A stretch of DNA of 64,000 nucleotides from Collimonas fungivorans (GTDB lineage: Bacteria; Pseudomonadota; Gammaproteobacteria; Burkholderiales; Burkholderiaceae_D): the NCBI RefSeq assembly GCF_001584145.1, contig NZ_CP013232.1:1674001-1738000 (forward strand), written 5' to 3'. Within the stretch, counting starts at the first letter, position 1. Every line of letters begins with the position of its first letter. Below, one piece after another: positions 31,182 through 51,362 of the stretch. Under the pieces are notes generated by a model, which was not told where the DNA came from, did not search any database, and saw only the letters and a program-made list of their open reading frames with translations. The position numbers were made by a program, and so were the translations under genes.

Positions 31182-31847
31182 CTAATCAGATTCCAGCTGC
31201 GCCCACAGCCGCGCCAGATACGGATCGCGGAATCCTTCTTTCAGCAGCCCTTCCAGGGTATGCCGCAAATAATCCCTCGCCGGCCCATAGAGTCCGCAAG
31301 CGTCGCGCAGGTGGGAAACCACTTTCAGGTCCGGCAGGCGGCCGGTGTAGCTTTCGTGCTGGCGGTTCATGACAAACGCCAGCGCCTTGACGCGCGGGCC
31401 GTTCTTGCCTTTGAGCTGCATCGGCAGCCAGCGCGGCAGGTAAGCGCCGGTCATCATTTCGCGGCGCCACAGCATTTTCAGTTCGGTTTCGATGCTGATG
31501 GCGGGGATGCGGAATGCAATGCCTTGGCAAGAGCCGCCGCGGTCCAGGCCCAGCACCAGGCCGGGATTGTCCCAGGTGCCGCGGTTGATGCGCGAATACA
31601 GGTAAAAGCCGCGGTGGTAGCCGTACAGCATGGCCGGCACGCGCTCGCTGTATTCCACCATCGGATTCCAGATCAATGAGCCGTAGCCGAACAGCCAGAC
31701 ATCGCCGTTGGGATCTGGCAGTGAAGCCAGCGCGGCGCGCCAGGAAGCCTCCAGCGCTGCTTCGGACAGCAGGGCAGAGGCAATCGGGGTATTGTCCAGG
31801 ATGGTCCGCAGGCGGTCCTGTTCCAGATCTTCACGGGTGATGCTCAT
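31182..31847 (-). CDS. Gamma-glutamylcyclotransferase, ChaC family
   Basis: 221 residues from the ATG at 31847; the frame is open to 31925 but the extra residues look non-coding. The substrate-binding motif is VWLFGYGSLIWNP (YGSL), and the catalytic Glu is expected in the later region with GAYLPRW. ChaC proteins cleave glutathione to 5-oxoproline and Cys-Gly in the cytoplasm. No clear ribosome site was seen. Single gene, same strand as the following kinase gene's operon but 114 bp away. Confidence 0.9.
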   Translation of the reverse strand: MSITREDLEQDRLRTILDNTPIASALLSEAALEASWRAALASLPDPNGDVWLFGYGSLIWNPMVEYSERVPAMLYGYHRGFYLYSRINRGTWDNPGLVLGLDRGGSCQGIAFRIPAISIETELKMLWRREMMTGAYLPRWLPMQLKGKNGPRVKALAFVMNRQHESYTGRLPDLKVVSHLRDACGLYGPARDYLRHTLEGLLKEGFRDPYLARLWAQLESD

Positions 31848-31961
31848 GGTTACAGAATAAGCCAGATCGATGGGCTGCAACAAGTGCTTTGCCAAACTTC
31901 CGTGGTTTAACGGCAATGCACGCATTGCATCATTCTCTGAGTGCAGCCAGGATAAGCGTTG

Positions 31962-32882
31962 CTAGCTTGATCCCAATATCTCTTCTACCTGCGCTGCGCG
32001 CGGAATCGGCGCCACCGCACCGTAACCGGTAGTCGACAAGGCGGCGCAGACATTGGCGTAGCGGGCAGCGCGAAACGGGTCGTCGCCGGCTGTCAGGCGG
32101 GCAATGAAAGCGCCGCCAAAACAATCGCCGGCGCCGGTCGCGTCGACTGCTTCCACGCCGTAAGCCGGCACCAGCCGGCGTTCATCGGCGGTCGCGACAT
32201 AACAGCCCTCGGCGCCAAGCTTGAACGCGACCAGGCCGATGCCGTAGGACAGCAAGGTATCGACAATCGCGTCGCGGTCGTCGAGGCCGGTGAGGGCGCT
32301 GACGTCGTCCCAGCTGGGCAGGCAGATATCGCACAACGCAAACGCTTCGCGCATTTTTTCGCGGGCCCGTTCCAGCGGCCACAGCTTCAGCCGCAGGTTG
32401 GTGTCGAGCGAGGTGCGTACACCGTGCTTGCGCGCATGCGCCATCGCCGCCAGTCCGGCATCGCAGGCCGATGCGCTGATCGCCAGGCTGATGCCTGACA
32501 GGTGCAGTACCTTGGCCGCAGCGATCGCCGCCAGCGGCAGCTGCGCGCTGGCATAGCGGCTGGCGGCCGAGCCGGCGCGCAGATAGTCGAAGTGATGGCC
32601 GTCCTGGTCGTGCGATACAAAATACACGCCGGTGGCGGCCTGCGCATCGCTGGCGACGTGGCTGGCGTCGACCTGTTCGGCCAGCCACAGCTCGCGCAGC
32701 TTCTGCCCGAAATGATCGTTGCCGAGCGCGCTGATGTAACCGCTGCGCGCGCCCTGGCGGGCGGCGGCGATGCAGAAATTCGACGTGTCGCCGCCGAAAC
32801 CCTGCAGGTACATGCGGGCATCATGCTGCCGCTGGTTGAATTCCACCATGGCTTCGCCATAGGCCAGGATATCTGTAGTCAT
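31962..32882 (-). CDS. kdgK: PfkB-family sugar kinase, 2-keto-3-deoxygluconate kinase-like
   Basis: 306 residues. The N-terminal glycine motif is in YLQGFGGDTSNFCIAAARQG, and the C-terminal anion hole with catalytic Asp is DATGAGDCFGGAFIARL. Overall resemblance is to KdgK, which phosphorylates 2-keto-3-deoxygluconate to KDPG for the Entner-Doudoroff pathway. It begins 18 bp after the PLP deaminase gene on the same strand, so its substrate is probably the keto product of that enzyme. The exact substrate is inferred from context. Confidence 0.85.
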   Translation of the reverse strand: MTTDILAYGEAMVEFNQRQHDARMYLQGFGGDTSNFCIAAARQGARSGYISALGNDHFGQKLRELWLAEQVDASHVASDAQAATGVYFVSHDQDGHHFDYLRAGSAASRYASAQLPLAAIAAAKVLHLSGISLAISASACDAGLAAMAHARKHGVRTSLDTNLRLKLWPLERAREKMREAFALCDICLPSWDDVSALTGLDDRDAIVDTLLSYGIGLVAFKLGAEGCYVATADERRLVPAYGVEAVDATGAGDCFGGAFIARLTAGDDPFRAARYANVCAALSTTGYGAVAPIPRAAQVEEILGSS

Positions 32883-32900
32883 TGCTTGTGCCGGATCAGG

Positions 32901-34205
32901 TTAAAAGAAAGTCTGGATCACATCGACAACCTGGTGCTGGGGATCGAGCACCGCGATCTGGCGCCACTTGTCGAAGGTCAGGCAGGGATGGGAGATGTCG
33001 AAGCCGATCATGTCGCCGACCTTGATGTCGTCGCCTTCGGTAATCTGCAAATATGCGTGCTGGTCCATCATGCCGGTCAGTTGCCAGTGCGCCGGCGTAA
33101 CCGTGGGGGCCGGATTGCCCGGGCGATAATGCGCAGCAGGCAAAGGCAGGCCGGCATCGAATGCGGCGTCGCGCTTGCCGAGCGCAATGATGGCTTTGCC
33201 GGTTTCCGGGATCGACTGTACATAAGCCCATAACTGCAGGGCCGGCAGCAGCTCGGTGCGCATCTTGCGGGCGATCGGATTGCGGGTCTGGATCTGCGCC
33301 TGCGCGGCGCGATAAATGCCGACGTCATGGGTCAGGTAGCAGCCCGGGCGCAGCACTACATCCAGCGGCAGGCCGATGTCGGTCTTGGCGAATTCTTCGG
33401 CGACTACGTCATACCAGGCCGAACCGGCGCCGGTCAGTATTACCGGCCTGCCTGCACTACCGCCTGTGCGTGCGGCAAAACGGCCATCCTTGGCCAGCTG
33501 TTTGGCGCAGGCGACTGCATGCCGCAGGAAACTGCGGATATCGGCTTCTTCTTTCAGCACGCCTTCGTACACTTCGACGCCAGCCAGCACAATGCTTTCG
33601 GGCCAGCGCGCCAGTGCCGCCAGCACCGCTTCTTGCTGCTGCGGATTGCGGATGCCGGTGCGGCCGCCGTCAGGGCCCAGCTCCAGCAGCACATGCAGTT
33701 TTTGCTTGCGCGCCTGGAAGAATGCGCCCAACTGGTCGACGCCGTCGGCCGAATCGATCAGGCAGCAGAATTCAAAGGAGGGGTCGGCCAGCAAATCGGA
33801 AATGATCGCCATGTTCTGTTTGCCGACCAGCTGATTGGCCATGATCACGCGCTGGACGCCGTGCTGGCGGGCGACCCGGGTCTGGTGCGCGGTAGCCAGG
33901 GTAATGCCCCATGCGCCGCCGGCCAGCTGGCGTGCAAACAGTTTCGGCGCCATTGTGGTTTTGCCATGCGGAGCCAGCTTGACGCCGTATTCGGTGACGA
34001 ACTGCTGCATCCACTGCAGGTTGTGGGTCATGCGCTCTTCGTACAGCACAGCAGTAGGCAGGCTCAGGTCTTCCCGCAGCAGGTTCCAGTTGCGCGCCTT
34101 GACTTCGGCGGCAGGCAGCGCTTGCTGGAATGCGCCCAGGCCCTTGTTCAGGGGATCGATCAACGGGTTCTGGTAATCGCTGTGATAGTTAATAACATTT
34201 GTCAT
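32901..34205 (-). CDS. Fold-type III PLP amino acid deaminase (D-serine dehydratase/D-threonine aldolase-like)
   Basis: 434 residues from the ATG at 34205 with a strong GGAGGAGAT site. The N-terminal alanine-racemase-type barrel has the PLP Lys in VKLAPHGKTTMAPKLF. The C-terminal DSD1-like domain has the metal-binding His/Cys pair in DMIGFDISHPCLTFD. Family members remove ammonia from D-amino acids bearing a beta-hydroxyl (D-serine, D-threo-3-hydroxyaspartate) or cleave D-threonine. D-glucosaminate, also a beta-hydroxy D-amino acid, would give 2-keto-3-deoxygluconate, the substrate of the next gene's kinase. The reaction is inferred. Confidence 0.85.
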   Translation of the reverse strand: MTNVINYHSDYQNPLIDPLNKGLGAFQQALPAAEVKARNWNLLREDLSLPTAVLYEERMTHNLQWMQQFVTEYGVKLAPHGKTTMAPKLFARQLAGGAWGITLATAHQTRVARQHGVQRVIMANQLVGKQNMAIISDLLADPSFEFCCLIDSADGVDQLGAFFQARKQKLHVLLELGPDGGRTGIRNPQQQEAVLAALARWPESIVLAGVEVYEGVLKEEADIRSFLRHAVACAKQLAKDGRFAARTGGSAGRPVILTGAGSAWYDVVAEEFAKTDIGLPLDVVLRPGCYLTHDVGIYRAAQAQIQTRNPIARKMRTELLPALQLWAYVQSIPETGKAIIALGKRDAAFDAGLPLPAAHYRPGNPAPTVTPAHWQLTGMMDQHAYLQITEGDDIKVGDMIGFDISHPCLTFDKWRQIAVLDPQHQVVDVIQTFF

Positions 34206-34268
34206 CGGATCTCCTCCATCAGAATTCATTTGACGTAATCATATCCTTGAATTTACTATATTAAAAGC

Positions 34269-34285
34269 ATGTTACAAAGTAACAT
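34269..34285. promoter_or_regulatory. Candidate RpiR operator (palindrome)
   Basis: ATGTTAC-AAA-GTAACAT is a perfect 17-bp palindrome in the AT-rich divergent region between the PLP deaminase and the rpiR gene. RpiR-family regulators such as HexR bind palindromes of this size and style (TGTA...TACA). It could control both operons. Confidence 0.5.
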
Positions 34286-34389
34286 AGGGTTTTCTTCCTG
34301 CCGTGTCTGTTGCCGCGCTTGTTGCCAGATACTGCGGCTTGTTGTTGTTTCCCGTTGCGGTTCCACCCGTATTATCCAACTGACAGCTG

Positions 34390-35270
34390 ATGACACAATT
34401 ATTCGATATTGTCTCGCGCATCGCCGAACGCAGCAGCCAGCTGCGCCTGGCTGAGCAAAAAGTGGCGCAGGCAATCCTGGGCGACCTGCCGTTTGCGGCA
34501 AGCGCCAGCATCCAGACCCTGGCCAGGCAGGCCGGCGTCAGCGAAGCCAGCGTCACCCGCTTTGCCAAGGCTATCGGCTGCCGCGACGTGCGTGAACTGA
34601 AGATGCGCCTGGCCCAGGCCGCGGCGATCGGCCAGCGGTTTTTGCGGGTAGAGAATTCTGTTGCTGAAAATCAATTTCCGCAAATCGTCGATATCGTCTA
34701 TGCCGATATCCACAAGTCGCTGGAGGTCAACCGCAGCTTGCTGAGCCAGGAAAATTTGCTGCAGGCGGCGCGGGCGCTGCTGCAGGCGCGCATGATTTAC
34801 GCCTTTGGCATGGGCGGCGGCTCGACTATGCTGTCGGATGAGGCCGTTACCGGCTGGTGCGCCTGGGGCGCCCGGTGGCCACCTACCACGACGCCATGCT
34901 GCAGAAAATGGTGGCGGCGACGCTCGACAAGGACGATGTGATCCTGGCCCTGTCGACTACCGGCAATGTGCCCGAACTCAATGCCAGCTGCGCCATCGCC
35001 AAGGAGTATGGCGTGCGGCTGGTGGCGATCACCGCCCTCGGTTCGCCGCTGGCGGCGATGGCCGATGTGCTGCTGCCGTTGAAGTCGCTGGAAACCGATT
35101 TCATTTTCAAGCCGTCGTCGTCGCGCTACGCCATGATGATGGCGCTGGACGTGCTGATGACCGAGTTGGCATTGCTGCAAAAGGACCACAGCCAGGAGTT
35201 GCTGCGGCGCCTGAAATTCACACTGGATACACATCGCGGCGGCGGCAATCGCGAGCCGTTGGGAGACTGA
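34390..35270 (+). pseudogene. RpiR-family transcriptional regulator, frameshifted
   Basis: The first frame (34390-34941) encodes the full RpiR helix-turn-helix domain (residues 1-77, with LARQAGVSEASVTRFAKAIGC) and the start of the SIS sugar-phosphate domain (FGMGGGSTMLSDEA). After GATGAGGCC at 34838-34846 the frame continues as nonsense. The correct SIS continuation (YRLVRLGRPVATYHDAMLQ, then LALSTTGNVPELN) is read one base off down to 35270. Restoring one C near 34844 gives a normal protein of about 293 residues. It is either a real inactivating deletion or a sequencing error. The regulator would normally sense a phosphorylated sugar acid and control both flanking operons. Confidence 0.88.
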
Positions 35271-35271
35271 A

Positions 35272-36816
35272 ATGAGTACTGATTCAAATACATTGCCGAC
35301 GCCCGGCAGCGCACCCAGCTGTGACACCCTGATTCGTAACGTCTCGGTGATCGACGGCAGCGGCAGCGCGGCGTATGTCGCCGATGTCGCCCTGGCCGGC
35401 GGCCGCATCCTGCATATCGAACCGCGCGGACCTCATGGCAACGCCAATGCCGGCGCGCTTTCCGGCTGGCAGGCCCAGCAGGTGATAGACGGCAGCGGCA
35501 AGGTCCTGAGCCCCGGTTTCATCGACGTCCACACGCACGACGACACCAACGTCATACGCACGCCGAGCATGCTGCCGAAGTTGTCGCAGGGCGTCACTAC
35601 CGTGGTGGTCGGCAATTGCGGCATCAGCGCCGCGCCGGTCAGCCTCAAGGCGGAACCGCCGGATCCGATGAACCTGCTGGGCGAAGCGAGCGCTTTCAGC
35701 TATCCGACTTTTGCTTCCTATGTCGAAGCGGTGACCCAGGCCCAGCCGGCGATCAATGTCGCCGCCCTGATCGGTCATACCGCCTTGCGCAGCAACCAGA
35801 TGGACCGGCTCGACCGCGCCGCCACCGAGACCGAAATCGCCGCCATGTGCGAGCAGTTGCGCGAAGCGCTGGCGCACGGCGCGCTGGGACTCAGCACCGG
35901 CCTGGCCTATGGCAATGCGATCAACGCCCCGACCGCCGAAGTGCTGGCGCTGGCGCAACCGCTGGCCGAGGCCGGCGCCATTTACGCTACCCATTTGCGC
36001 AGCGAATTCGCCGATATCCTGGAAGCCATGGATGAGGCATTCCGCATCGGCAAGCATGCCCGGGTGCCGGTGGTGATTTCGCACCTGAAATGCGCCGGCG
36101 TCGAAAACTGGGGTCGCAGCGGCGAGGTGCTGGAAGCGCTGGAGCAGGCGCAACGCTACCAGCCGGTCGGCTGCGACTGTTATCCCTACACTGCTAGCTC
36201 CTCCACCCTGGATTTGAAGCAGGTGACCGACACCATCGACATCATGGTGACCTGGTCGGAACCGGAGCCGGCTATGGGCGGCAAGCTGCTGGCCGACATC
36301 GCCGCCGAATGGCAGGTCGACCTGATGGCGGCCGCGCGCCGCCTGCAGCCGGCCGGCGCGGTCTACCACTGCATGCAGGATGAAGACGTCAACCGCATCC
36401 TGAGCCACCCGGCCAGCGTGGTCGGTTCCGACGGCCTGCCTAACGATCCCCTGCCGCATCCGCGCCTGTGGGGCGCCTTCCCGCGCGTGCTGGGTTATTA
36501 CAGCCGCGAACAGAAACTGTTCCCGCTGACCGTGGCGATCCGCAAGATGACCGGCCTGTCGGCCGAGCGTTTCGGCCTGGCCGAACGCGGCCTGGTGCGC
36601 GAAGGATATTGGGCCGACCTGGTGCTGTTCGATGCGGCGACCGTGCGCGACGCCGCCACCTTCTCCGATCCGATGCAGCCGGCCGAAGGCATCGATGCGG
36701 TGTGGGTGAATGGCGCGTTGTCTTACCTGGGCGGCGCGCAAAAAGCGCCGACCGAGTTGCGGGCAGGGCGGTTCCTGGCGCGCCAGGCCGGCGTCAGCGG
36801 CGTACTGGCAAGTTGA
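35272..36816 (+). CDS. D-aminoacylase (N-acyl-D-amino-acid deacylase)
   Basis: 514 residues, amidohydrolase superfamily. Metal and catalytic residues typical of D-aminoacylases are visible: HxH in GFIDVHTHDDTN, the bridging Cys in VVVGNCGISAAP, His in YATHLRSEF and ISHLKCAG, and the catalytic Asp in VGSDGLPND. It hydrolyses N-acyl-D-amino acids to the free D-amino acid and carboxylate in the cytoplasm (no signal peptide). It starts 2 bp after the regulator gene. Together with the deaminase and kinase it could process N-acetyl-D-glucosaminate. Confidence 0.93.
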   Translation: MSTDSNTLPTPGSAPSCDTLIRNVSVIDGSGSAAYVADVALAGGRILHIEPRGPHGNANAGALSGWQAQQVIDGSGKVLSPGFIDVHTHDDTNVIRTPSMLPKLSQGVTTVVVGNCGISAAPVSLKAEPPDPMNLLGEASAFSYPTFASYVEAVTQAQPAINVAALIGHTALRSNQMDRLDRAATETEIAAMCEQLREALAHGALGLSTGLAYGNAINAPTAEVLALAQPLAEAGAIYATHLRSEFADILEAMDEAFRIGKHARVPVVISHLKCAGVENWGRSGEVLEALEQAQRYQPVGCDCYPYTASSSTLDLKQVTDTIDIMVTWSEPEPAMGGKLLADIAAEWQVDLMAAARRLQPAGAVYHCMQDEDVNRILSHPASVVGSDGLPNDPLPHPRLWGAFPRVLGYYSREQKLFPLTVAIRKMTGLSAERFGLAERGLVREGYWADLVLFDAATVRDAATFSDPMQPAEGIDAVWVNGALSYLGGAQKAPTELRAGRFLARQAGVSGVLAS

Positions 36817-36854
36817 GTCTTGTTTTGAATTTTGTTCTTTACTGAGGAGTTGTC

Positions 36855-37238
36855 ATGACAATCAAACGATATGGTGTTGAAGGTGGTTCGGGAACCGGCG
36901 GCCAGCATCTGCCGTTCGCGCGTGCGGTGGAAGCCGACGGCTGGCTGTATGTTTCCGGCCAGGTAGCGATGGTGGACGGCGAAGTGATCGACGGCGGCAT
37001 CGTCGCCCAGTCGCACAAGACCATCCAGAACGTGCTGGCGATCCTGAAAGAGGCCGGCTACGGCCCCGAGCACGTGGTGCGTTGCGGCGTCTGGCTCGAC
37101 GATACCCGCGATTTCCAGTCGTTCAACCGGGTCTTCAAGGAATACTTTGGCGCCAATCCGCCTGCCCGCGCTTGCGTGCAGTCGAGCATGGTGGTCGATT
37201 GCAAGGTGGAAGTGGATTGCATCGCTTATAAAAAATAA
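36855..37238 (+). CDS. RidA-family enamine/imine deaminase
   Basis: 127 residues, YjgF/YER057c/UK114 fold, trimeric. The key Arg is in NPPARACVQSSM and the Glu in CKVEVDCIAYK, the residues that bind the carboxylate and activate water. RidA proteins hydrolyse enamine or imine intermediates released by PLP dehydratases. Its place between the D-aminoacylase and the permease fits the PLP deaminase encoded across the divergent promoter. Confidence 0.92.
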   Translation: MTIKRYGVEGGSGTGGQHLPFARAVEADGWLYVSGQVAMVDGEVIDGGIVAQSHKTIQNVLAILKEAGYGPEHVVRCGVWLDDTRDFQSFNRVFKEYFGANPPARACVQSSMVVDCKVEVDCIAYKK

Positions 37239-37376
37239 ACCAGGACCAGGTCGTTGAATTGACTGGCAACTGGTAGTTAATGGCTGCAAAATGGCGCCGT
37301 TATGGATTTGTGCGCCGAGGCAGGCGGCAGGTATATGGTGGTGTCAAAAAAATAAATCGGACTTTAGGAGGATTTG

Positions 37377-38729
37377 ATGGAGATGGTTCAAGGAAACATG
37401 TTGCTGCTGTATGCAGTGATTGCAGTGATCGCGCTGGTGGTGCTGATCGCCAAGTTCAAGATGAATCCGTTCATCGTGCTGATCGTGGTGTCGGTGATCC
37501 TGGGGCTGGTGGTCGGCATGCCGATGGCCAGCATCGTCAAATCCTATGAAACCGGCGTCGGCGGCGCATTAGGGCATATTGCGCTGGTGGTCGGGCTGGG
37601 CACCATGTTCGGCAAGATGATGGCCGAATCGGGCGGCGCCGAGCGCGTGGCCAATACGCTGATTGGCGTGTTCGGCCCCAAGCGGGTGCACTGGGCCATG
37701 ATGGTGGTGGCCCTGATCGTCGGCCTGCCGGTGTTCTTTGAAGTCGGTTTCGTGCTGCTGATCCCGATTGCATTCAACGTCGCCAAGCGCACCGGGACTT
37801 CGATGATCATGGTCGGGATTCCGATGGTTGCCGGCCTGTCTGTCGTGCATGGCTTGATTCCGCCGCATCCGGCCGCGTTGTTCGCCGTGACCGCCTACAA
37901 CGCGGACATCGGCCGCACCATCATGTACGCGCTGATCGTCGGCATTCCTACCGCGATCATTGCCGGCCCGCTGTTTGCCAAGCTGATCAGCCGCTTCGTG
38001 GTGCCGAATCCAGACAATCCATTGATCGCGCAATTCGTGGAAGAAGGCAAGACCCGCGAATTGCCTGGTTTCGGCATCACCATAGCAACCATCCTGCTGC
38101 CGGTGGCGCTGATGCTGATCGGCAGCTGGGCCGATGTGTTTTTCACGCCAAAAACTTTCGCCAACGATTTCCTGCGCCTGATCGGCAACTCGGTGATTGC
38201 ACTGCTGATTGCTACACTGGTAAGTTTTTACACCTTCGGCAAGGCGCGCGGTTTTGATCGCGCGGCGATTCTGAAATTTACTACCGAGTGTCTGGCGCCT
38301 ATCGCCGGGATCACGCTGATCGTCGGCGCCGGCGCCGGTTTTGGCCGGATCCTGATCGACGGCGGCGTCTCCAAGGCGATTGTCGAACTCGCCAACAACG
38401 CCCATTTGTCGCCGTTGCTGCTGGGCTGGTTCGTGGCGGCGCTGATCCGCGTCGCTACCGGTTCCGCCACGGTGGCGATGACCACTGCCTGCGGCATCGT
38501 CGCACCTATCGTCACCGCCGCCGGCGTTACCGTCAGGCCGGAACTGATGGTGCTGGCTACCGGCGCCGGTTCGCTGATCCTGTCGCACGTCAACGATGGC
38601 GGTTTCTGGCTGGTCAAGGAGTACTTCAACATGACCGTGACGGAAACCTTCAAGACCTGGACTGTGGCAGAGACCATCATTTCGGTGGTGGCGCTGTTGC
38701 TGACCTTGGGCCTGGCTACAGTGATCTGA
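37377..38729 (+). CDS. GntP-family sugar-acid:H+ symporter
   Basis: 450 residues from the ATG at 37377 with AGGAGG 5 bp before it; about 12 membrane helices. The family signature is seen in GLSVVHGLIPPHPAALFAV and in RVATGSATVAMTTACGIVAP. GntP permeases import gluconate and related aldonic or keto acids, some also D-serine. As last gene of the operon, followed by a strong terminator, it is the likely entry point for the substrate of the D-aminoacylase. The substrate is inferred. Confidence 0.92.
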   Translation: MEMVQGNMLLLYAVIAVIALVVLIAKFKMNPFIVLIVVSVILGLVVGMPMASIVKSYETGVGGALGHIALVVGLGTMFGKMMAESGGAERVANTLIGVFGPKRVHWAMMVVALIVGLPVFFEVGFVLLIPIAFNVAKRTGTSMIMVGIPMVAGLSVVHGLIPPHPAALFAVTAYNADIGRTIMYALIVGIPTAIIAGPLFAKLISRFVVPNPDNPLIAQFVEEGKTRELPGFGITIATILLPVALMLIGSWADVFFTPKTFANDFLRLIGNSVIALLIATLVSFYTFGKARGFDRAAILKFTTECLAPIAGITLIVGAGAGFGRILIDGGVSKAIVELANNAHLSPLLLGWFVAALIRVATGSATVAMTTACGIVAPIVTAAGVTVRPELMVLATGAGSLILSHVNDGGFWLVKEYFNMTVTETFKTWTVAETIISVVALLLTLGLATVI

Positions 38730-38816: not shown

Positions 38817-39702
38817 GCGTCTCCCGATTGTGAAAGGCGCACGTCTCAAGATAATTTCATAATGTTGTATTTCTGAAACATCATTTTGTTAATTCTGGGA
38901 ATACTTTTTATTTAACAAAACAGAGCTGCACCTGATCTGGGTTGATCGAGAAATAAACTGGCTTGGCTACTTGTAAACCTCGTTATATATAGGCAGCTAT
39001 TGCGTCACATCCATATGTGGCAATCTCAGGCCAGACCATCCTGTCGGGCGCGGGGACGATATATTTCCATGTGGAATTGTAAAAAAATATTCTAAGAATG
39101 TTAATTTACAAAATGTAAACGTTAACTAATGTTAATTATTAAAATAAACATTACTTCCATATTCAATATCTTTGAAATACGTCTAAAATGACAATTAATT
39201 TCCATGCCGCATTGTTTTCATATGGAAAGCCCGAGCAGGGTATTCAGCGTCATTCCGGGCCTGCAGCATCGCGCAGAATCATTCTGTGCCTGCAACGATG
39301 CGGCAAGCATGTCAGTTTCTTACATCTCATTTTCCTGATGTAGCCGCCGCCGCGGAAATTGAGCCAGAGGTTGTTGGACCAGCAATTGGAGTCAGCCATG
39401 GCAATACGGATTTATCCCCCAACAGAAAGTATTTGCTCCGCCCACACGTACTTCGCCATCCAGGCGAGGTGCACTCTTATCGAAAGTTTTGTTGCCGCCG
39501 CAATGCGTTGGGGATAAGCCGCCTCAAAAGCATCGCCGGCAGTGTTTAGCCAAACGGGCAATTCTGCATTAGGCATGCTTGGTCTCAATTCAGACTGAGA
39601 CAAAATCCCTGTTTTTTTACCCTCAATTTTCTTCGCTATGGACCCGTCCCGGCGTTGAGGGCGTCTTTTTGCCTATTTTTTTGTATTTTTCCGGAGAACG
39701 TC
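38817..39702. other. Long AT-rich non-coding region upstream of the autotransporter
   Basis: 886 bp. The part from about 38850 to 39230 is clearly AT-richer than its surroundings. It has several palindromes, among them TTTACA-AAA-TGTAAA (39105-39119) and repeated TTCCATGTGGAA-like sites (39067, 39226). From 39290 to 39600 base composition returns to normal and short frames of 63-87 codons exist on both strands, but none looks like a protein I know. A weak promoter is possible at TTGGTC (39579) and CAAAAT (39601), 16 bp apart, overlapping the palindrome GTCTCA-N8-TGAGAC. Confidence 0.5.
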
Positions 39703-42700
39703 ATGAGCAAGACTTATCGTTTGGTATGGAGCAAGACACAAGGTGCGCTGGTAGTCACATCGGAACTGGCCAAGACCAATGGCAAGGGAGCATCGAACCT
39801 GCTGTTGTCGACTGGCCCGGTCGGCGCAGCCGGCGGCCTGTCCGGCCAAGGCGAAGCGGCGCCGCAACTGCGGCGCTTGCCGGCATTGCTGGCGCTGGCG
39901 ACCAGCGGTTTTTTTGCCCTGAACGGTTCGTCAGCCTGGGCCAATTGCACGCCGAGTAATCCGGCTAACGGCGCAACAGTCACCTGCACCGGCGCCGCGC
40001 CGTTGCTGGCGCCTTCATTCAGCAGCGCTGCCAATAACCTGACGGTGAACGTCAACACCGGCGCCAGCGCCGGAGTACTGCTGGGCCTGCTCGGCACGGC
40101 AATGAATTTGACCGGCAACAATGTCACGCTCAATAACGGCGGCACCATAGATCCGTCGCTGCTGGGGGCGGCCAGCCTGTTATCGACCGGCACCGTGATC
40201 GGCAATGCCGCGGCCAGCACCGTTACCGTCAACAACAGCGGCACCATGAAGGGCACCAGCGGCTTGCTGGGGGTGAGCCTGAGCAATCTGAACGGCGTCG
40301 CGCTGGCTGTGCAGAACGGCACCGGCGGCGTCAGCAATCTTTCCAATACCGGCACCATCGGCAGTTCGCCTTTGCTGGGCGTCTCGCTGTTCGCATCCGA
40401 TGCGCCGGTGGTTGCGGCCTACGGCGGCGGCCAAGTCAACTTCGTCAATTCCGGCACTATCACCGGCCGGGTTGCGTTCGAGGCCTCGGGTACTCCGGGC
40501 ACTGGCAACACCTTCGTCAATTCCGGGACCATCACCGGCAGCGTATCGATGGGCGCCAACAGCAGCAACACCTTTACCGCGGTGACCGGCTCCAACGTCA
40601 ATTCAGGCGGCAGCCTTGGCCTCAACCTGCTGAACGTGGTCGGCCTCAATCTCGGATTTGCGTCGACCGGGACGGTCGACGGCGGCGCCGGCGGCAACAA
40701 TACCTTGCTCCTGCAAAATACGGCAACGGGTACCGGCAGCGGCAGCACCGGCTCGGGCACCATTACCAGCGGCACCTACGTCAACTTCCAGCACCTGGGA
40801 CTCAACAGCGGCAGCTGGACCTTGAGCGGAGCGCAGACATTCCAGGATGCGACACTGAACGGCGGCCTGGCGCTGTTCGATAATTCCGCCTCTTTCGGCA
40901 CCGGTGCAATTACGGCCAACGGCGGCGCGATCCAGGCCACTGCCGCCGGCCTTGACCTTGGCAACAGCTTCAACCTGCAAGGCGGCGGGCTGACGGTCCA
41001 GGGCGCGAGCGCACTGACCATATCGGGCATCATCTCGGGCGTCGGCGGATTGACCAAGAACGATAGCGGAACGCTGACCTTGAACGGCGCCAATAACTAT
41101 AGCGGCAACACCAATCTCAACGCCGGCGGACTGGTCTTGGGGAACGCCACGGCTATCGGCAGCGGTGCTTTGGCAGTGGGGGGCAATGCAACACTGGATA
41201 CCAGCATCGGACTGACTCTGGGCAACAACATCAATCTCGCCGGCGGAGCGGACCTGACCCTCACCGGCAGCAATAACCTCGGTTTGAGCGGCATCATTTC
41301 CGGCGCCGGCGGCCTCGTGAAAAACGGCAGCACCACGACCACGCTGACCGGCGCCAATACCTTCACTGGCGCTGCGACAATCAACGCCGGGACGCTGGCT
41401 ATCGGCGCGGGCGGCAGCCTGGCGCCGATCGTGGCAGTCAACGTGGCCGGTATCGGCGCCGGTTTCGACATTTCTGCCGGCGGCAACCAGACCATCGGCT
41501 CATTGGCTGGCGTGGCAGGCAGTACAGTCGCCTTGGGCGCCAACACCCTGACCTTCGGTGACGCCACCAACCAGACCTATGGCGGTGTCATTGGCGGCAC
41601 AGGTGGCCTGATCAAACAAGGCAGCGGCACCGAAACCCTGACTGGCGCCAATACCTTCACTGGCGCTGCGACGATCAACGCCGGGACGCTGGCCATAGGC
41701 GCAGGCGGCAGCCTGGCGCCGACTGTGGCAGTCAACGTCGCGGGCGCTGGCGCCGGCCTGGATATTTCCGCCGGCGGCAACCAGACCATCGGTTCGCTGG
41801 CAGGCGTGGCAGGCAGCACAGTCGCACTGGGCGCAAATACCTTGACCTTCGGCGATGCCACCAACCAGACCTTCGGCGGCGCCATCGGCGGCACCGGCGG
41901 CCTGATCAAACAAGGCAGCGGTACCGAAACCCTGACGGGCGCCAACACCTTTACTGGCAGCGCGACGATCAATGCCGGTACGCTGGCTCTTGGCGCGGGC
42001 GGCAGCCTGGCGCCGACCGTGGCAGTCAACGTCGCCGCAGCTGGCGCCGGCCTGGATATTTCCGCCGGCGGCAACCAGACCATCGGTTCGCTGGCAGGCG
42101 TAGCAGGCAGCACAGTGGGCTTGGGGGCAAATACCCTGACCTTCGGCGATGCCACCAACCAAACCTTCGGCGGCGTCATCGGCGGCACTGGCGGCTTGAT
42201 CAAACAAGGCACTGGCACGGAAACCCTGACGGGCGCCAATACCTTTAGCGGCGGCGCAACCATCAACGCCGGCACGTTGGCCCTGGGCGCTGGAGGCAGC
42301 CTGGCGCCGACCGTGGCAGTCAACGTCGCAGGCGCCGGCGCCGGCCTGGATATTTCCGCAGGAGGAAATCAAACCATCGGTTCGCTGGCTGGCGTGGCAG
42401 GCAGCACAGTGGCCTTGGGCGCCAACACCCTGACCTTCGGCGATGCGACCAACCAAACCTTCGGCGGCGTCATCGGCGGCACTGGCGGCTTGACCAAACA
42501 GGGGACGGGTACAGAAACCCTGACAGGCGCCAATACCTTTACCGGTGGCGCGACGATCAATGCCGGTACGCTGGCCTTGGGTGCTGGCGGCAGCTTGCTG
42601 CCAACGGTGGCGATCAATGTCGCCGGCGCCGGCGCCGGCTTTGATATTTCTGCCGGCGGTAACCAGACCATCGGTTCGCTGGCTGGCGTAGCAGGCAGCA

Positions 42701-45700
42701 CAGTGGGCTTGGGCGCCAATACCTTGACCTTCGGCGATGCCACCAACCAGACCTTCGGCGGCGCCATCGGTGGTACTGGCGGCCTGGTCAAACAAGGCAC
42801 GGGCACCGAAACCCTGACTGGCGCCAACACCTTCACCGGCGGCGCGACGATCAACGCCGGCACGCTGGCCATAGGCGCTGGCGGCAGCCTGGCGCCGACT
42901 GTGGCAGTCAACGTTGCGGCCGCTGGCGCCGGCCTGGATATTTCCGCCGGCGGCAACCAGACCATCGGTTCGCTGGCTGGCGTGGCCGGCAGCACAGTAG
43001 CCTTGGGCGCGAATACCCTGACATTCGGCGACGCCACCAATCAAACCTTTGGCGGCATCATCGGCGGCACCGGCGGTTTGGTCAAACAGGGTACTGGCAC
43101 TGAAACCCTGACGGCAGCCAATACCTTTACCGGCGGCGCAACCATCAACGCCGGCACGCTGGCCATAGGCGCAGGCGGCAGCCTGGCGCCGACCGTGGCA
43201 GTCAACGTCGCGGGCGCTGGCGCCGGCCTGGATATTTCCACCGGCGGCAACCAGACCATCGGTTCGCTGGCCGGCGTGGCAGGCAGCACAGTCGCCTTGG
43301 GCGCGAATACCCTGACCTTCGGCGACGCCACCAATCAGACCTTTGGCGGCGCCATCGGCGGCACCGGCGGCCTGGTCAAACAAGGTAGCGGCACCGAAAC
43401 CCTGACTGGCGCCAATACCTTCACTGGCGGCGCCACGATCAATGCCGGTACGCTGGCTCTTGGCGCGGGCGGCAGCCTGGCTCCAACCGTGGCAGTCAAC
43501 GTCGCCGCAGCTGGCGCCGGCCTGGATATTTCCGCCGGCGGCAACCAGACCATCGGTTCGCTGGCCGGCGTGGCAGGCAGCACAGTGGCTCTGGGTGGTA
43601 ACACCTTGACCTTTGGCGACGCCGCCAATCAAACCTTCGGCGGCGTCATCGGCGGCACCGGCGGCCTGGTCAAACAAGGCAGCGGCACCGAAACCCTGAC
43701 GGGCGGCAATACCTTCACTGGCGGCGCAACCATCAATGCCGGCGCCTTGATCCTGGGCGCAGGCGGAAGCCTGGCGCCGAGCGTGGCAGTCAACGTCGCC
43801 GGCGCCGGCGCAAGCCTGGACATTTCTGCCAGCGGCAACCAGACCATCGGTTCGCTGGCCGGCGTGGCAGGCAGCACAGTTGCCTTGGGCGCCAATACCT
43901 TGACCTTCGGCGATGCCACCAACCAGACCTTCGGCGGCGTCATCGGCGGCACCGGCGGCCTGGTCAAGCAAGGCACGGGCGCGGAAACACTGACCGGCGC
44001 CAATACATACACCGGCGGCACGGCCATCAATGCCGGCTCGCTGATACTTGGCAACAGCTCAGCGATCGGTACCGGTGCATTGACTGTCGGCGGCGCCGCA
44101 ACCGTCGACAACACCATTCCGCTGACATTGAATAATGCGGTAGTCCTCAATGCCGGCCTGACCGTGGCGGGCAGCAACGACCTGACATTGAGCAACGTGG
44201 TGTCCGGAACCGGCAGCCTGACCAAGGATGGCGCAGCCAACCTGACCCTGGCCGGCGCCAATACCTACAGCGGTGGCACGGTTCTGAACAACGGCACGAT
44301 CACCGTGGGCAATAATTCTGCGCTTGGTACAGGCAGCCTGGCTCTGAATGGCGGCCAGCTCGATGTGAACGGCTTCCAGATAACGGTGGCCGGCTTGAGC
44401 GGCAACGGCAATGTGACCCTAGGCAGCAACAGCGGTAGCGTGACGGTGAACGGCGGCGGCACGTACGGCGGCGTCATTTCGGGAGCCGGGACGGTGGCCA
44501 AGGACGGCAGCGATACCTTGACGCTGACCGGCGCCAACACTTACACCGGCGGCACCACCATCAATGCCGGTACATTGCAGATCGGGAATGGCGGCACCAC
44601 AGGAAGCATTGTGGGCAACGTGGTCGATAACGGCACACTGGCTTTCAATCGCTCCGACGATATCACTTATGGTGGCGTGATCAGCGGCAGCGGCAGCGTG
44701 GTCAAGCTGGGCGCCGGGGTGTTGGATTTGAGCGGCGTCAGTACTTACAGCGGACCAACCACTGTAAATGCCGGTACGCTTGCGGTAAGCGGTTCGATCG
44801 CCAATTCGACTGTCACCGTCAACAGCGGCGGCGCCATCCAGGGGCCCGGCACTATCGGCGGACTGCTGGTCAACAGTGGCGGCACGGCTGCGATCGCCGC
44901 CGCCGGCCAGCCTATCGGCAGCCTGACGGTAGCCGGCAACGCTGCCTTTACACCTGGATCGTTTTACCAGGTGAAAGCCACGCCGCAGCAAGCCGACTTG
45001 ATCAGCGTCGGCGGCAGCACCAGCTTGACTGGCGGAACGGTGCAGGTGATGGCGGCGGTGGGCGACTACAAGCCGACCAACAACTATACGATTCTTACTT
45101 CTGCCGGCGGCGTCAGCGGCACGTTTTCCGGGGTGACGTCAAACCTGGTATTCCTGACGCCTAGCCTGAGCTACGACGCCAAGAACGTATTTCTGCAACT
45201 GGTGCGCAACAGTGTGTCGTTCCAGCAGGCGGCCAGTACGCCGAACCAGCAAAGCGTGGCAAACGCGGTCGCCATCCTCGGCGGCGGCAATACGATTTAC
45301 GACACCATCACCTCGCTCGACCTGGCATCGGCGCAAGCGGCGTTTGACAGCCTGTCCGGCGAGACTCAGGCCAGCGCACGCAGCGTCATGCTGGAAGATA
45401 GCCGTTACATCAGGGATGCGGTCACGGCGCGGGCGCGCCAGGGTTCGGCTGCCCGTTCCGGCGTCTTGTCGGCGCTCTCGGCCGGCGGCGCAGCCAGCTG
45501 CACGACAGACAGCGCAACCCAGCAGAACGATCAGTTGCGAGTCGATAACGCCTGCGCCGACGACCGGCGCAATGCGCGGGTAGTCTGGGGCCAGGTATAT
45601 GGCGCCAAGAGCAACCTGGATGGCGAGAACGGCGTGGCCAACGTGAACCGCAGCACCGGCGGCTTCATTGTCGGGGTCGACACACCGCTGAACGATACCT

Positions 45701-46401
45701 GGCGTGCAGGTGTCGCCGGCGGCATCGGTCACACGTCGTTTGACACCAGTCGTTCCAACGGTTCCGGTTCCATCGATAGCTATCACCTGGCGCTATACGG
45801 TGACGCGCAGTTCGGCGCGCTTGGCGTACGCCTGGGGACTGCATATACCTGGAACAAGCTGGATACCGACCGCAGCATCGTGTTCCCGGGTTTCTCCGAC
45901 AGCACCAAGGCCAGCTACGATGCGCACACCACCCAGGTTTTCGGTGAGCTGGGCTACGCCATTGCGGCGGGCCGGGTAGCGCTGGAACCGTTCGCCGGCC
46001 TGGCGTATGTCAACCTGCATACCGACGGCTTCAGCGAAAACGGCGGCGCCGCGGCCCTGAGCGGCAAGAGCGACAGCCAGAATGTCACCTTCTCGACATT
46101 GGGTGTAAGGGCGGCAACCCTCCTGGGCGCTCCCGGCTCGGGCGTGACTGCCCGCGGCACGGTCGGCTGGCGCCACGCATTCGGCAGCGTGACGCCGACC
46201 GCCGATCTGGCGTTCAAGAGCAACGCCGCTGCATCATTCGCGGTGACTGGCGTGCCGGTAGCGCGCGACGCCATGCTGGTGGAAGCCGGGATTGATGTCG
46301 GCATCGGCAAGAGCGCAACGCTGGGCCTGGGATATTCAGGACAGTTCGGCGACAAGGTAAGGGATAACGCCATCAAGGCAAACATAGCGTGGAAATTCTG
46401 A
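39703..46401 (+). CDS. Giant autotransporter (type Va) with near-identical passenger repeats
   Basis: 2232 residues from the ATG at 39703 (CCGGAGAACG upstream). Residues 1-28 (MSKTYRLVWSKTQGALVVTS) are an extended signal peptide region, with signal cleavage predicted after SSAWA at residue 80. The passenger (81 to about 1900) is a Gly/Ala/Thr/Asn-rich beta-helix with many passenger-associated transport motifs (LTGANTYTGGTTINAGTL). Nine 98-residue units form its core (41308-43953). The C-terminal 275 residues are the autotransporter beta-barrel, starting near VVWGQVYGAKS and ending in the outer-membrane signature IAWKF. Probably a surface adhesin or biofilm factor. No protease motif was noticed. 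Confidence 0.95.
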   Translation: MSKTYRLVWSKTQGALVVTSELAKTNGKGASNLLLSTGPVGAAGGLSGQGEAAPQLRRLPALLALATSGFFALNGSSAWANCTPSNPANGATVTCTGAAPLLAPSFSSAANNLTVNVNTGASAGVLLGLLGTAMNLTGNNVTLNNGGTIDPSLLGAASLLSTGTVIGNAAASTVTVNNSGTMKGTSGLLGVSLSNLNGVALAVQNGTGGVSNLSNTGTIGSSPLLGVSLFASDAPVVAAYGGGQVNFVNSGTITGRVAFEASGTPGTGNTFVNSGTITGSVSMGANSSNTFTAVTGSNVNSGGSLGLNLLNVVGLNLGFASTGTVDGGAGGNNTLLLQNTATGTGSGSTGSGTITSGTYVNFQHLGLNSGSWTLSGAQTFQDATLNGGLALFDNSASFGTGAITANGGAIQATAAGLDLGNSFNLQGGGLTVQGASALTISGIISGVGGLTKNDSGTLTLNGANNYSGNTNLNAGGLVLGNATAIGSGALAVGGNATLDTSIGLTLGNNINLAGGADLTLTGSNNLGLSGIISGAGGLVKNGSTTTTLTGANTFTGAATINAGTLAIGAGGSLAPIVAVNVAGIGAGFDISAGGNQTIGSLAGVAGSTVALGANTLTFGDATNQTYGGVIGGTGGLIKQGSGTETLTGANTFTGAATINAGTLAIGAGGSLAPTVAVNVAGAGAGLDISAGGNQTIGSLAGVAGSTVALGANTLTFGDATNQTFGGAIGGTGGLIKQGSGTETLTGANTFTGSATINAGTLALGAGGSLAPTVAVNVAAAGAGLDISAGGNQTIGSLAGVAGSTVGLGANTLTFGDATNQTFGGVIGGTGGLIKQGTGTETLTGANTFSGGATINAGTLALGAGGSLAPTVAVNVAGAGAGLDISAGGNQTIGSLAGVAGSTVALGANTLTFGDATNQTFGGVIGGTGGLTKQGTGTETLTGANTFTGGATINAGTLALGAGGSLLPTVAINVAGAGAGFDISAGGNQTIGSLAGVAGSTVGLGANTLTFGDATNQTFGGAIGGTGGLVKQGTGTETLTGANTFTGGATINAGTLAIGAGGSLAPTVAVNVAAAGAGLDISAGGNQTIGSLAGVAGSTVALGANTLTFGDATNQTFGGIIGGTGGLVKQGTGTETLTAANTFTGGATINAGTLAIGAGGSLAPTVAVNVAGAGAGLDISTGGNQTIGSLAGVAGSTVALGANTLTFGDATNQTFGGAIGGTGGLVKQGSGTETLTGANTFTGGATINAGTLALGAGGSLAPTVAVNVAAAGAGLDISAGGNQTIGSLAGVAGSTVALGGNTLTFGDAANQTFGGVIGGTGGLVKQGSGTETLTGGNTFTGGATINAGALILGAGGSLAPSVAVNVAGAGASLDISASGNQTIGSLAGVAGSTVALGANTLTFGDATNQTFGGVIGGTGGLVKQGTGAETLTGANTYTGGTAINAGSLILGNSSAIGTGALTVGGAATVDNTIPLTLNNAVVLNAGLTVAGSNDLTLSNVVSGTGSLTKDGAANLTLAGANTYSGGTVLNNGTITVGNNSALGTGSLALNGGQLDVNGFQITVAGLSGNGNVTLGSNSGSVTVNGGGTYGGVISGAGTVAKDGSDTLTLTGANTYTGGTTINAGTLQIGNGGTTGSIVGNVVDNGTLAFNRSDDITYGGVISGSGSVVKLGAGVLDLSGVSTYSGPTTVNAGTLAVSGSIANSTVTVNSGGAIQGPGTIGGLLVNSGGTAAIAAAGQPIGSLTVAGNAAFTPGSFYQVKATPQQADLISVGGSTSLTGGTVQVMAAVGDYKPTNNYTILTSAGGVSGTFSGVTSNLVFLTPSLSYDAKNVFLQLVRNSVSFQQAASTPNQQSVANAVAILGGGNTIYDTITSLDLASAQAAFDSLSGETQASARSVMLEDSRYIRDAVTARARQGSAARSGVLSALSAGGAASCTTDSATQQNDQLRVDNACADDRRNARVVWGQVYGAKSNLDGENGVANVNRSTGGFIVGVDTPLNDTWRAGVAGGIGHTSFDTSRSNGSGSIDSYHLALYGDAQFGALGVRLGTAYTWNKLDTDRSIVFPGFSDSTKASYDAHTTQVFGELGYAIAAGRVALEPFAGLAYVNLHTDGFSENGGAAALSGKSDSQNVTFSTLGVRAATLLGAPGSGVTARGTVGWRHAFGSVTPTADLAFKSNAAASFAVTGVPVARDAMLVEAGIDVGIGKSATLGLGYSGQFGDKVRDNAIKANIAWKF
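41308..43953 (+). repeat. Nine tandem 294-bp repeats in the autotransporter
   Basis: Units start at 41308 + 294n. Anchor sequences recur in exact register: the ACCATCGG-type site at 41491, 41785 and on to 43843 is eight periods of 294 bp with no indel. Each unit encodes 98 residues around NQTIGSLAGVAGSTV, TLTFGDATNQTFGG and TETLTGANTFTGGATINAGT. A tenth partial unit begins at 43954. Length variation by unit gain or loss would keep the frame. Confidence 0.97.
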
Positions 46402-50469: not shown

Positions 50470-51362
50470 CTACGGCTTGCCGTTTTTCTTGCGCAGGGCC
50501 AGATCGCCAGTCAATGCAGCGAATTGCTGGTACAGGCTGGCAACCTGCGGTTGCCACTTCTGGATCGCCTGATATTGCCTGGCGACGGTAGCCATGTCGC
50601 CGCGCGCGATGGGGCCGGTGAGGGCGGCGGCGGGGCCGAGCCTGAAGGCATTGGCAGCGCTTTCGGACAGCAATGGCTCGATCAGCTGCAGAGCAAGTTC
50701 GGGGCAATGCCGGCTGCCGCATAAGCTTGTTGCGCCACGTCTATCAGCGTTACCTGGTAGTTGGACGCGAAGACCGCGGCAGCGTGGTACAGGGTTTTTT
50801 GCTCACGACGGATAGCCACCAGTTGCGCGCCGATGGCGCTGAACGCCGGGCCGAGGACGGCAAGGGCGGCGGCATCGCCTTCGCTGCCGCACCAGGTGCC
50901 GGCGAAATGCTCGGCTACCTGTTGCGGCACGGCGAAGCTGCGGATCGGGTGGATGCTGGCGACAGCGGCGCCGCGTTCGGACGCGGCTGCCAGTTCGAGC
51001 GACGACAGGGCGCCGCTGCAATGGAACACGATGCTGCCGGGCTGCAATTTTCCGGCGGCGGCAAGGGTGCTGCAGCAAGCAGCGATCTGGTCGTCGCCGG
51101 CCGCGATCAGGTAGGCGTCGGCAATGCGCAGGTCGACGCAGGAAGCCGCTACGCTGCCGGCGCCGATGAAGGCGCTGGCTTCCTGCGCGCTGGCAGTCGA
51201 GCGGTTCAGGATGTCGAGCAGGGTAAACGTCCGACTGTCGTACCACAGCCGGCCCAGGGTGCGGCCAAGCTTGCCGCAGCCGATGATGCTCAGGGTAGGC
51301 GCGTTTGCGCCAGCTGCGCCTAGCTGCCCAGTTGCTCCAGCGCTTCCTGCTGTTCCAGCCAT
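50470..51362 (-). pseudogene. Rossmann-fold/DUF2520 protein, frameshifted
   Basis: The N-terminal part (51362-50682, 226 residues) has the NAD(P)-type motif SIIGCGKLGRTLGRLW and the DUF2520 start (TLYHAAAVFASNYQVTLIDVA). It stops after AAAGIAPNLLCS. The natural continuation (ELALQLIEPLLSESAANAF, then GPAAALTGPIARGD) is read one base off and ends at 50470. Adding one C on the plus strand at about 50700 restores a protein of about 297 residues. Related to COG5495 proteins of unclear role. Real inactivation or sequencing error. The start overlaps the end of the ABC-F gene by 43 nt. Confidence 0.85.

Follow-up and report, generated by a model that had tools for sequence, protein, structure and literature searches.

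A probable Burkholderiales form of the ong oxidized-chitin catabolic cluster in Collimonas fungivorans, with a candidate OngR operator

The closest described system for the catabolism of N-acetyl-D-glucosaminate (GlcNAc1A), the oxidized end unit of chitin, is the ong cluster of Pseudoalteromonas prydzensis ACAM 620 and its kin. In P. prydzensis, the order of deacetylase, deaminase and 2-keto-3-deoxygluconate (KDG) kinase was shown biochemically, gene by gene (PMC9537276), and further gene-level proof of the chemistry is given in PMC12017989. The deaminase OngC also acts on D-serine and D-threonine, the regulator OngR represses the ongOT-1 and ongCRBD operons, and ongOT-1, of the TonB-dependent receptor OngOT, is the only part of the cluster without high conservation (PMC9537276). 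A betaproteobacterial holder, Achromobacter piechaudii, already appears in the Fig. 6 legend of the same paper. Here, we analyze a six-gene cluster in a 64,000-nucleotide stretch of the C. fungivorans genome (contig NZ_CP013232.1, positions 1,674,001 to 1,738,000; hereafter the window), which consists of one contig of 5.6 Mb. We conclude with good confidence that this cluster is a Burkholderiales form of the ong oxidized-chitin catabolic cluster. The pathway itself has been described before and uses the same enzyme families; what is new is the proposed uptake by a GntP permease, the kinase branch and a conserved DNA site. A pathway described from marine bacteria is thereby extended to soil betaproteobacteria.

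The initial annotation had placed six genes in two divergent operons around an RpiR regulator, and reading frames and domain searches of the window confirmed all six where it had put them (Table 1). The leftward operon is ongC-kdgK and the rightward one rpiR-ongB-ridA-gntP, a divergent layout unlike that of the ong cluster. Both systems share counterparts of OngB, OngC, OngR and OngD, an in-cluster PfkB kinase and the predicted chemistry, and a palindrome is shared with two Pseudoalteromonas clusters. They differ in that the window has a GntP permease for the SSS-family OngIT and a kinase of another PfkB branch. Identity to the ong cluster of P. shioyasakiensis is 53% for OngB, 45% for OngC, 64% for OngD and 47% for OngR, the last measured on an intact 293-amino acid (aa) relative from the sister genome G028. 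The marine route with the same chemistry to which the initial annotation had pointed is this ong cluster. Its expectation of different enzyme families fails for the deacetylase, deaminase, RidA and RpiR proteins, which belong to the same families as the products of ongB, ongC, ongD and ongR; a difference from the marine version stands only for the transporter family and the kinase branch.

The substrate assignment turns on the amidohydrolase. Its closest PDB chains by phmmer are 9g5m (664 bits), PpOngB (522 bits), AfDam (450 bits) and BbDam (380 bits). According to PMC12017989, PpOngB (PDB 9KB1/9KB3) acts only on GlcNAc1A, with no detectable activity on N-acetyl-D-amino acids, whereas AfDam (1M7J) and BbDam (3GIP) use N-acetyl-D-amino acids but leave GlcNAc1A untouched. 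The same source names the sugar-contacting residues 290, 291, 292, 298 and 226 and the small residues 193 and 256 (PpOngB numbering, used throughout). The window protein is 53.6% identical to PpOngB and alike at 19 of 20 checked residues, the exception being Cys for Gly at 348; the metal ligands and catalytic Asp are shared. Like that of PpOngB, its pocket carries Ser290, Ser291, Ser292, Gln298, Glu226, Ala193 and Ala256, which are 309, 310, 311, 317, 245, 212 and 275, respectively, in the numbering of the window protein. AfDam and BbDam have the same fold family and share metal- and carboxylate-binding residues (AfDam aligned here, BbDam from PMC12017989), but AfDam differs from the window protein at positions 193, 256, 290, 292 and 298. 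The D-aminoacylase signature, Thr292 with Leu (AfDam) or Arg (BbDam) at 298, is replaced by Ser and Gln in the window protein. Note that the residue opposite Gln298 in AfDam is Arg by our sequence alignment and Leu by the structural alignment in PMC12017989; neither is Gln. The top-scoring solved chain (9g5m/9gv8, 'Amidohydrolase family protein') is 64% identical and shares Ser290-292 and Gln298; no paper mentioning these entry codes was found in the literature searched.

These residues are conserved well beyond the window. We found 351 contig stretches that encode a relative and studied the best 80. Without the one incomplete sequence (L009), Ser290-292, Gln298, Ala193 and Ala256 are kept in 79 of 79 loci and Glu226 in 78. 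For a control, we took nine of 11 full-length but weaker matches that the family search had given (46-53% identity; G017 and G143 were left out), and all nine carry Thr292, Phe or Tyr at 193, and no Gln298. Ala256 and Glu226 were rejected as diagnostic positions because these weaker relatives share them (7/9 and 9/9). In a tree of 32 sequences, PpOngB, the ong copies of Pseudoalteromonas and Vibrio and the window protein all belong to one 18-row clade (support 100/99). Ser292 and Gln298 are present in 17 of these rows and both absent from the outermost, a Pantoea sequence on a long branch, without which the subclade has support of 96/92. Homology and pocket residues thus make the window amidohydrolase a well-supported candidate GlcNAc1A deacetylase. 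The name D-aminoacylase in the initial annotation is apt for the fold family, but residues 292 and 298 and the tree place the protein with OngB; the substrate proposed there, GlcNAc1A, is probably right, given the OngB-type residues and the grouping with a proven GlcNAc1A deacetylase. A test of Ser292 and Gln298 separates likely GlcNAc1A deacetylases from D-aminoacylases, and the annotated records that we saw name both D-aminoacylase.

The predicted sequence of deacetylation, deamination and phosphorylation draws support from homology to the ong cluster (PMC9537276). GlcNAc1A would enter through the GntP permease, and the OngB-type zinc amidohydrolase would deacetylate it to D-glucosaminate. 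By homology, the OngC-type pyridoxal phosphate (PLP) enzyme would then deaminate D-glucosaminate to KDG, with RidA taking part. The PfkB kinase would phosphorylate KDG to 2-keto-3-deoxy-6-phosphogluconate (KDPG), and a KDPG/KHG-family aldolase encoded elsewhere would split it; the genome has two such genes outside the cluster. The deaminase is closest to PDB chain 3gwq (595 bits). The permease matches TIGR00791 with 496 bits (cut-off 292.75), and GntP is unmentioned in the main text of PMC9537276 and in that of PMC12017989 (supplements not covered). For the kinase, the best PDB chain is 1wye, named 2-keto-3-deoxygluconate kinase or hypothetical fructokinase, and the top curated model is the KDG/2-keto-3-deoxygalactonate kinase (193.9 bits, cut-off 400). 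The P. shioyasakiensis ong kinase fits another KdgK model (257.9 bits, cut-off 400), and the window kinase looks like a replacement from another PfkB branch.

The cluster is not a chance assembly, because its neighbor genes recur across the 80 related loci. Among these best 80 of 351, ridA stands by ongB in all 80, rpiR and ongC are present in 79 each, gntP in 63 and kdgK in 60; the one locus without rpiR and ongC is L009, a contig end. Where present, kdgK adjoins ongC and gntP lies downstream of ongB-ridA. Within the species and genus, OngB identity is 87-94% in seven other Collimonas records and reaches 100% in a contig of a C. fungivorans metagenome-assembled genome, which contains 403 residues of the protein. 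Furthermore, a plasmid of Gemmatirosa (Gemmatimonadota; L116 4627-7428) carries an ongB (66%) divergent from a gntP (68%), with no match to ongC, rpiR, ridA or kdgK in the 13 kb examined. This Gemmatirosa OngB has Gly290, but retains Ser292 and Gln298.

A conserved palindrome, TGTTA-N5-TAACA, lies between ongC and rpiR, just downstream of the predicted rpiR-ongB promoter (the search of the divergent region found one sigma-70-like promoter, against a mean of 0.6 in shuffles). Across the intergenic regions of the window and 79 further loci, 70 of 80 have the palindrome exactly and all 80 have it with no more than one mismatch, compared with 0.02 and 0.61 of 80 in first-order Markov shuffles. The whole genome holds 2 exact places versus 3 for a backward control pattern, and the genomes of the genus hold 0-3 each versus 0-5 for the control. 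Because the count is not above this control, it is the conserved place and spacer, not the number, that speak for function. The exact 15-mer of the window recurs in 12 of the 15 genomes of the genus search. The second genomic palindrome (position 518404) was considered as an operator target and rejected; it has another spacer, G028 and G117 hold one exact palindrome each, and we take it as chance.

The same palindrome is found in the marine clusters. Two Pseudoalteromonas ong clusters (L114 and L122) carry it twice each, 32 bp apart (2 and 2 versus 0.06 and 0.02 in shuffles). In L114, both copies lie between ongC and the divergent reading frames on its left, and in L122 they lie upstream of a 1072-aa open frame preceding ongC, a candidate ongOT-1. 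One exact copy occurs in the C. metallidurans cluster; the Vibrio cluster has nothing closer than a copy with one mismatch, and the Gemmatirosa ongB-gntP cluster has no copy. The main text of PMC9537276 describes no OngR operator or binding site, and no OngR site is described in the literature that we searched (supplements not covered in either case). We propose TGTTA-N5-TAACA as a candidate OngR operator, from which the RpiR protein would repress locally until GlcNAc1A, or one of its products, lifted the repression. The OngR repressor can now be tested at a defined site in the DNA.

The initial annotation linked the cluster to chitin-cutting lytic polysaccharide monooxygenases (LPMOs) and called for a search for AA10 neighbors in relatives. 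We find that this link is present but loose. In a family sample, an ongB orthologue (76-100% identity) occurs in 27 of 195 genomes: 11 from the window genus, 5 from genus g15 and 11 from genus g27, which we take for Herbaspirillum from identity only. An AA10 match was found in 11 of these 27 versus 11 of the 168 without the orthologue (P = 1.2e-5; this and the following P values ignore kinship). Seven of the 11 are from the window genus and four from g15; counted among them are the window genome, despite the stop in its gene, and G186, with a fragment match. In an order sample, 22 of 399 genomes have an OngB match at E <= 1e-165 (64-100%; pocket residues checked for some only), and AA10 was matched in 10 of these 22 versus 17 of the other 377 (P = 1.3e-7), or by genus in 6 of 13 versus 8 of 145 (P = 1.9e-4). 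In the g15 genomes G054 and G077, about 4 kb separate ongB from an AA10 gene; in two others (G096 and G112) the AA10 gene is present away from ongB, and G014 shows no AA10. Co-occurrence and proximity in two genomes thus uphold the proposed LPMO link in part, and the holders without AA10 and the state of the genome's own gene count against the rest of it.

Several observations weigh against the identification with the ong cluster. No AA10 match was seen in 16 of the 27 holders of the family sample, including all 11 of g27, and the only AA10 match of the window genome (C1:3272730-3273227; L085) has an in-frame stop where four compared orthologues have a Gln codon. No PF00728 match, the mark of a GH20 such as the periplasmic OngA, was found in the genome at E <= 0.001; among the 80 loci, to which the SSS search was limited, neither PsOngA nor PsOngIT found a match (0/80 each). 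The transporter differs in family, as noted above. Orthology of the kinase to the ong KdgK is not clear (28% identity to that of P. shioyasakiensis), and its assignment by curated models was rejected, with no NCBIfam cut-off reached. Lastly, the 17 loci without a gntP match are all from Pandoraea, and all 17 also lack a kdgK match in the stretch examined. These 17 and L013, L024 and L009 make up the 20 loci without kdgK, of which L009 and L058 (Pandoraea) end too early to judge kdgK, L058 inside ongC.

The sparse LPMOs could also mean that the cluster chiefly serves, in nature, a compound closely related to GlcNAc1A, namely D-glucosaminate or another N-acetyl aldonate, for example from oxidized free N-acetylglucosamine or glucosamine and not from LPMOs. 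The family sample (16 of 27 holders without an LPMO match), the order sample, in which 12 of 22 holders show no LPMO, and the absence of a GH20 match fit this, and glucosaminate use was proposed for Cupriavidus and Ralstonia from genome annotation (PMC2842291 and PMC3734047). We regard it as unlikely, since LPMO co-occurrence is enriched in all three comparisons, an LPMO gene lies near ongB in two genomes, and a dedicated deacetylase would have nothing to do if glucosaminate were the substrate. In many genomes of soil betaproteobacteria that carry the key gene, no LPMO was seen, which suggests that GlcNAc1A may be a shared soil nutrient. Extending the ong reading, we tentatively propose, at chances a little short of even, that soil Burkholderiales (Collimonas, Herbaspirillum, Cupriavidus and Pandoraea) and bacteria beyond them (the Gemmatirosa ongB-gntP pair) use a GlcNAc1A module with GntP as a self-contained scavenging unit, controlled from one OngR operator (TGTTA-N5-TAACA) that beta- and gammaproteobacteria have in common. 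Many holders would then take up the end unit freed by fungi or other bacteria, without oxidative chitin cutting of their own.

A further possibility, compatible with the other readings, is that this strain is losing the oxidative route. The single RpiR regulator of the initial annotation is present as a gene but is not one open frame here, a break that had been overlooked: positions 34390-34941 encode the N part in one frame and 34857-35270 the C part in another. Alignment with four relatives puts the break between about 34846 and 34857, and intact copies exist in relatives. Together with the LPMO stop, and a G028 orthologue of the LPMO gene that lacks its middle part (G028 has another AA10 gene), this favors decay. 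However, ongB, ongC, kdgK, ridA and gntP are 96-100% identical over their full length to those of G028. Of 46 genes compared with G028, using reading frames filtered by codon position in this GC-rich DNA, 42 are intact throughout, two match partly from the start (one at the window edge) and two are frame-broken. The second of these is a DUF2520/Rossmann-like gene (50479-51320, minus strand), shifted near 50694-50703. Assembly error is therefore possible, as two frame breaks occur among 46 compared genes, and we consider decay improbable. If the rpiR break is real, the operons may be constitutive here.

Last, a general operon for degrading N-acyl-D-amino acids (or D-serine and D-threonine), with a D-aminoacylase, a D-serine-type deaminase and a DsdX-like GntP permease, would agree with the family names of the domain and model matches, with the DsdX D-serine transporter model (332 bits to the permease, below its cut-off of 618), with the name D-serine deaminase of 3gwq and with the use of both amino acids by OngC itself (PMC9537276), but is very improbable against Ser292 and Gln298 in every complete locus and in none of the nine weaker relatives, the inactivity on N-acetyl-D-amino acids reported for PpOngB with these residues (PMC12017989), and a sugar kinase by ongC in 60 of 80 loci.

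Table 1. Features of the ong-like cluster in window coordinates, and AA10 genes beside related clusters in their own locus coordinates.
Feature	Position	Strand	Basis
kdgK-like PfkB sugar kinase, 306 aa, candidate KDG kinase	31962-32882	-	PF00294, 188.8 bits
ongC-like fold-III PLP D-amino acid deaminase, 442 aa	32901-34229	-	PF14031 and PF01168
Sigma-70-like promoter toward rpiR-ongB, TTGACG-N18-TACTAT	34230-34259	+	Consensus match only
Palindrome TGTTACAAAGTAACA, candidate operator of the RpiR protein (OngR)	34270-34284	.	TGTTA-N5-TAACA
rpiR (ongR-like) regulator gene, frame-broken	34390-35270	+	HTH_6 in N part, SIS in C part
ongB-like candidate GlcNAc1A deacetylase, 514 aa	35272-36816	+	PDB/PpOngB matches, pocket residues, tree
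ridA (ongD-like), 127 aa	36855-37238	+	PF01042
GntP-family permease, proposed GlcNAc1A importer replacing OngIT	37374-38729	+	PF02447, 537 bits
AA10 LPMO gene by ong cluster, g15 genomes	L090 3239-4813; L091 11859-12494		

The deaminase start is more likely at 34205, where an ATG is preceded by GGAGGAG. For chitin degradation, the genome has three GH18 matches, two of them barely above cut-off, and two GH3 matches, one of which just passes a beta-N-acetylhexosaminidase model (211.6 versus 207 bits). Plausibly, this GH3 protein, a putative hexosaminidase, might cut oxidized dimers in place of OngA. A chitin locus (L086 9008-18986) combines two GH18 genes and that GH3 with an AmpG-like permease, a NagB-II-like protein and a GntR regulator. 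Within the window, a ChaC-like gene (31182-31925, minus strand) follows kdgK; further loci of Collimonas, Glaciimonas and g15 also have it close to the cluster. On the other side, at 39655-46401 (plus strand), is a 2248-aa open frame, autotransporter-like, with about ten near-identical repeats as judged by eye.

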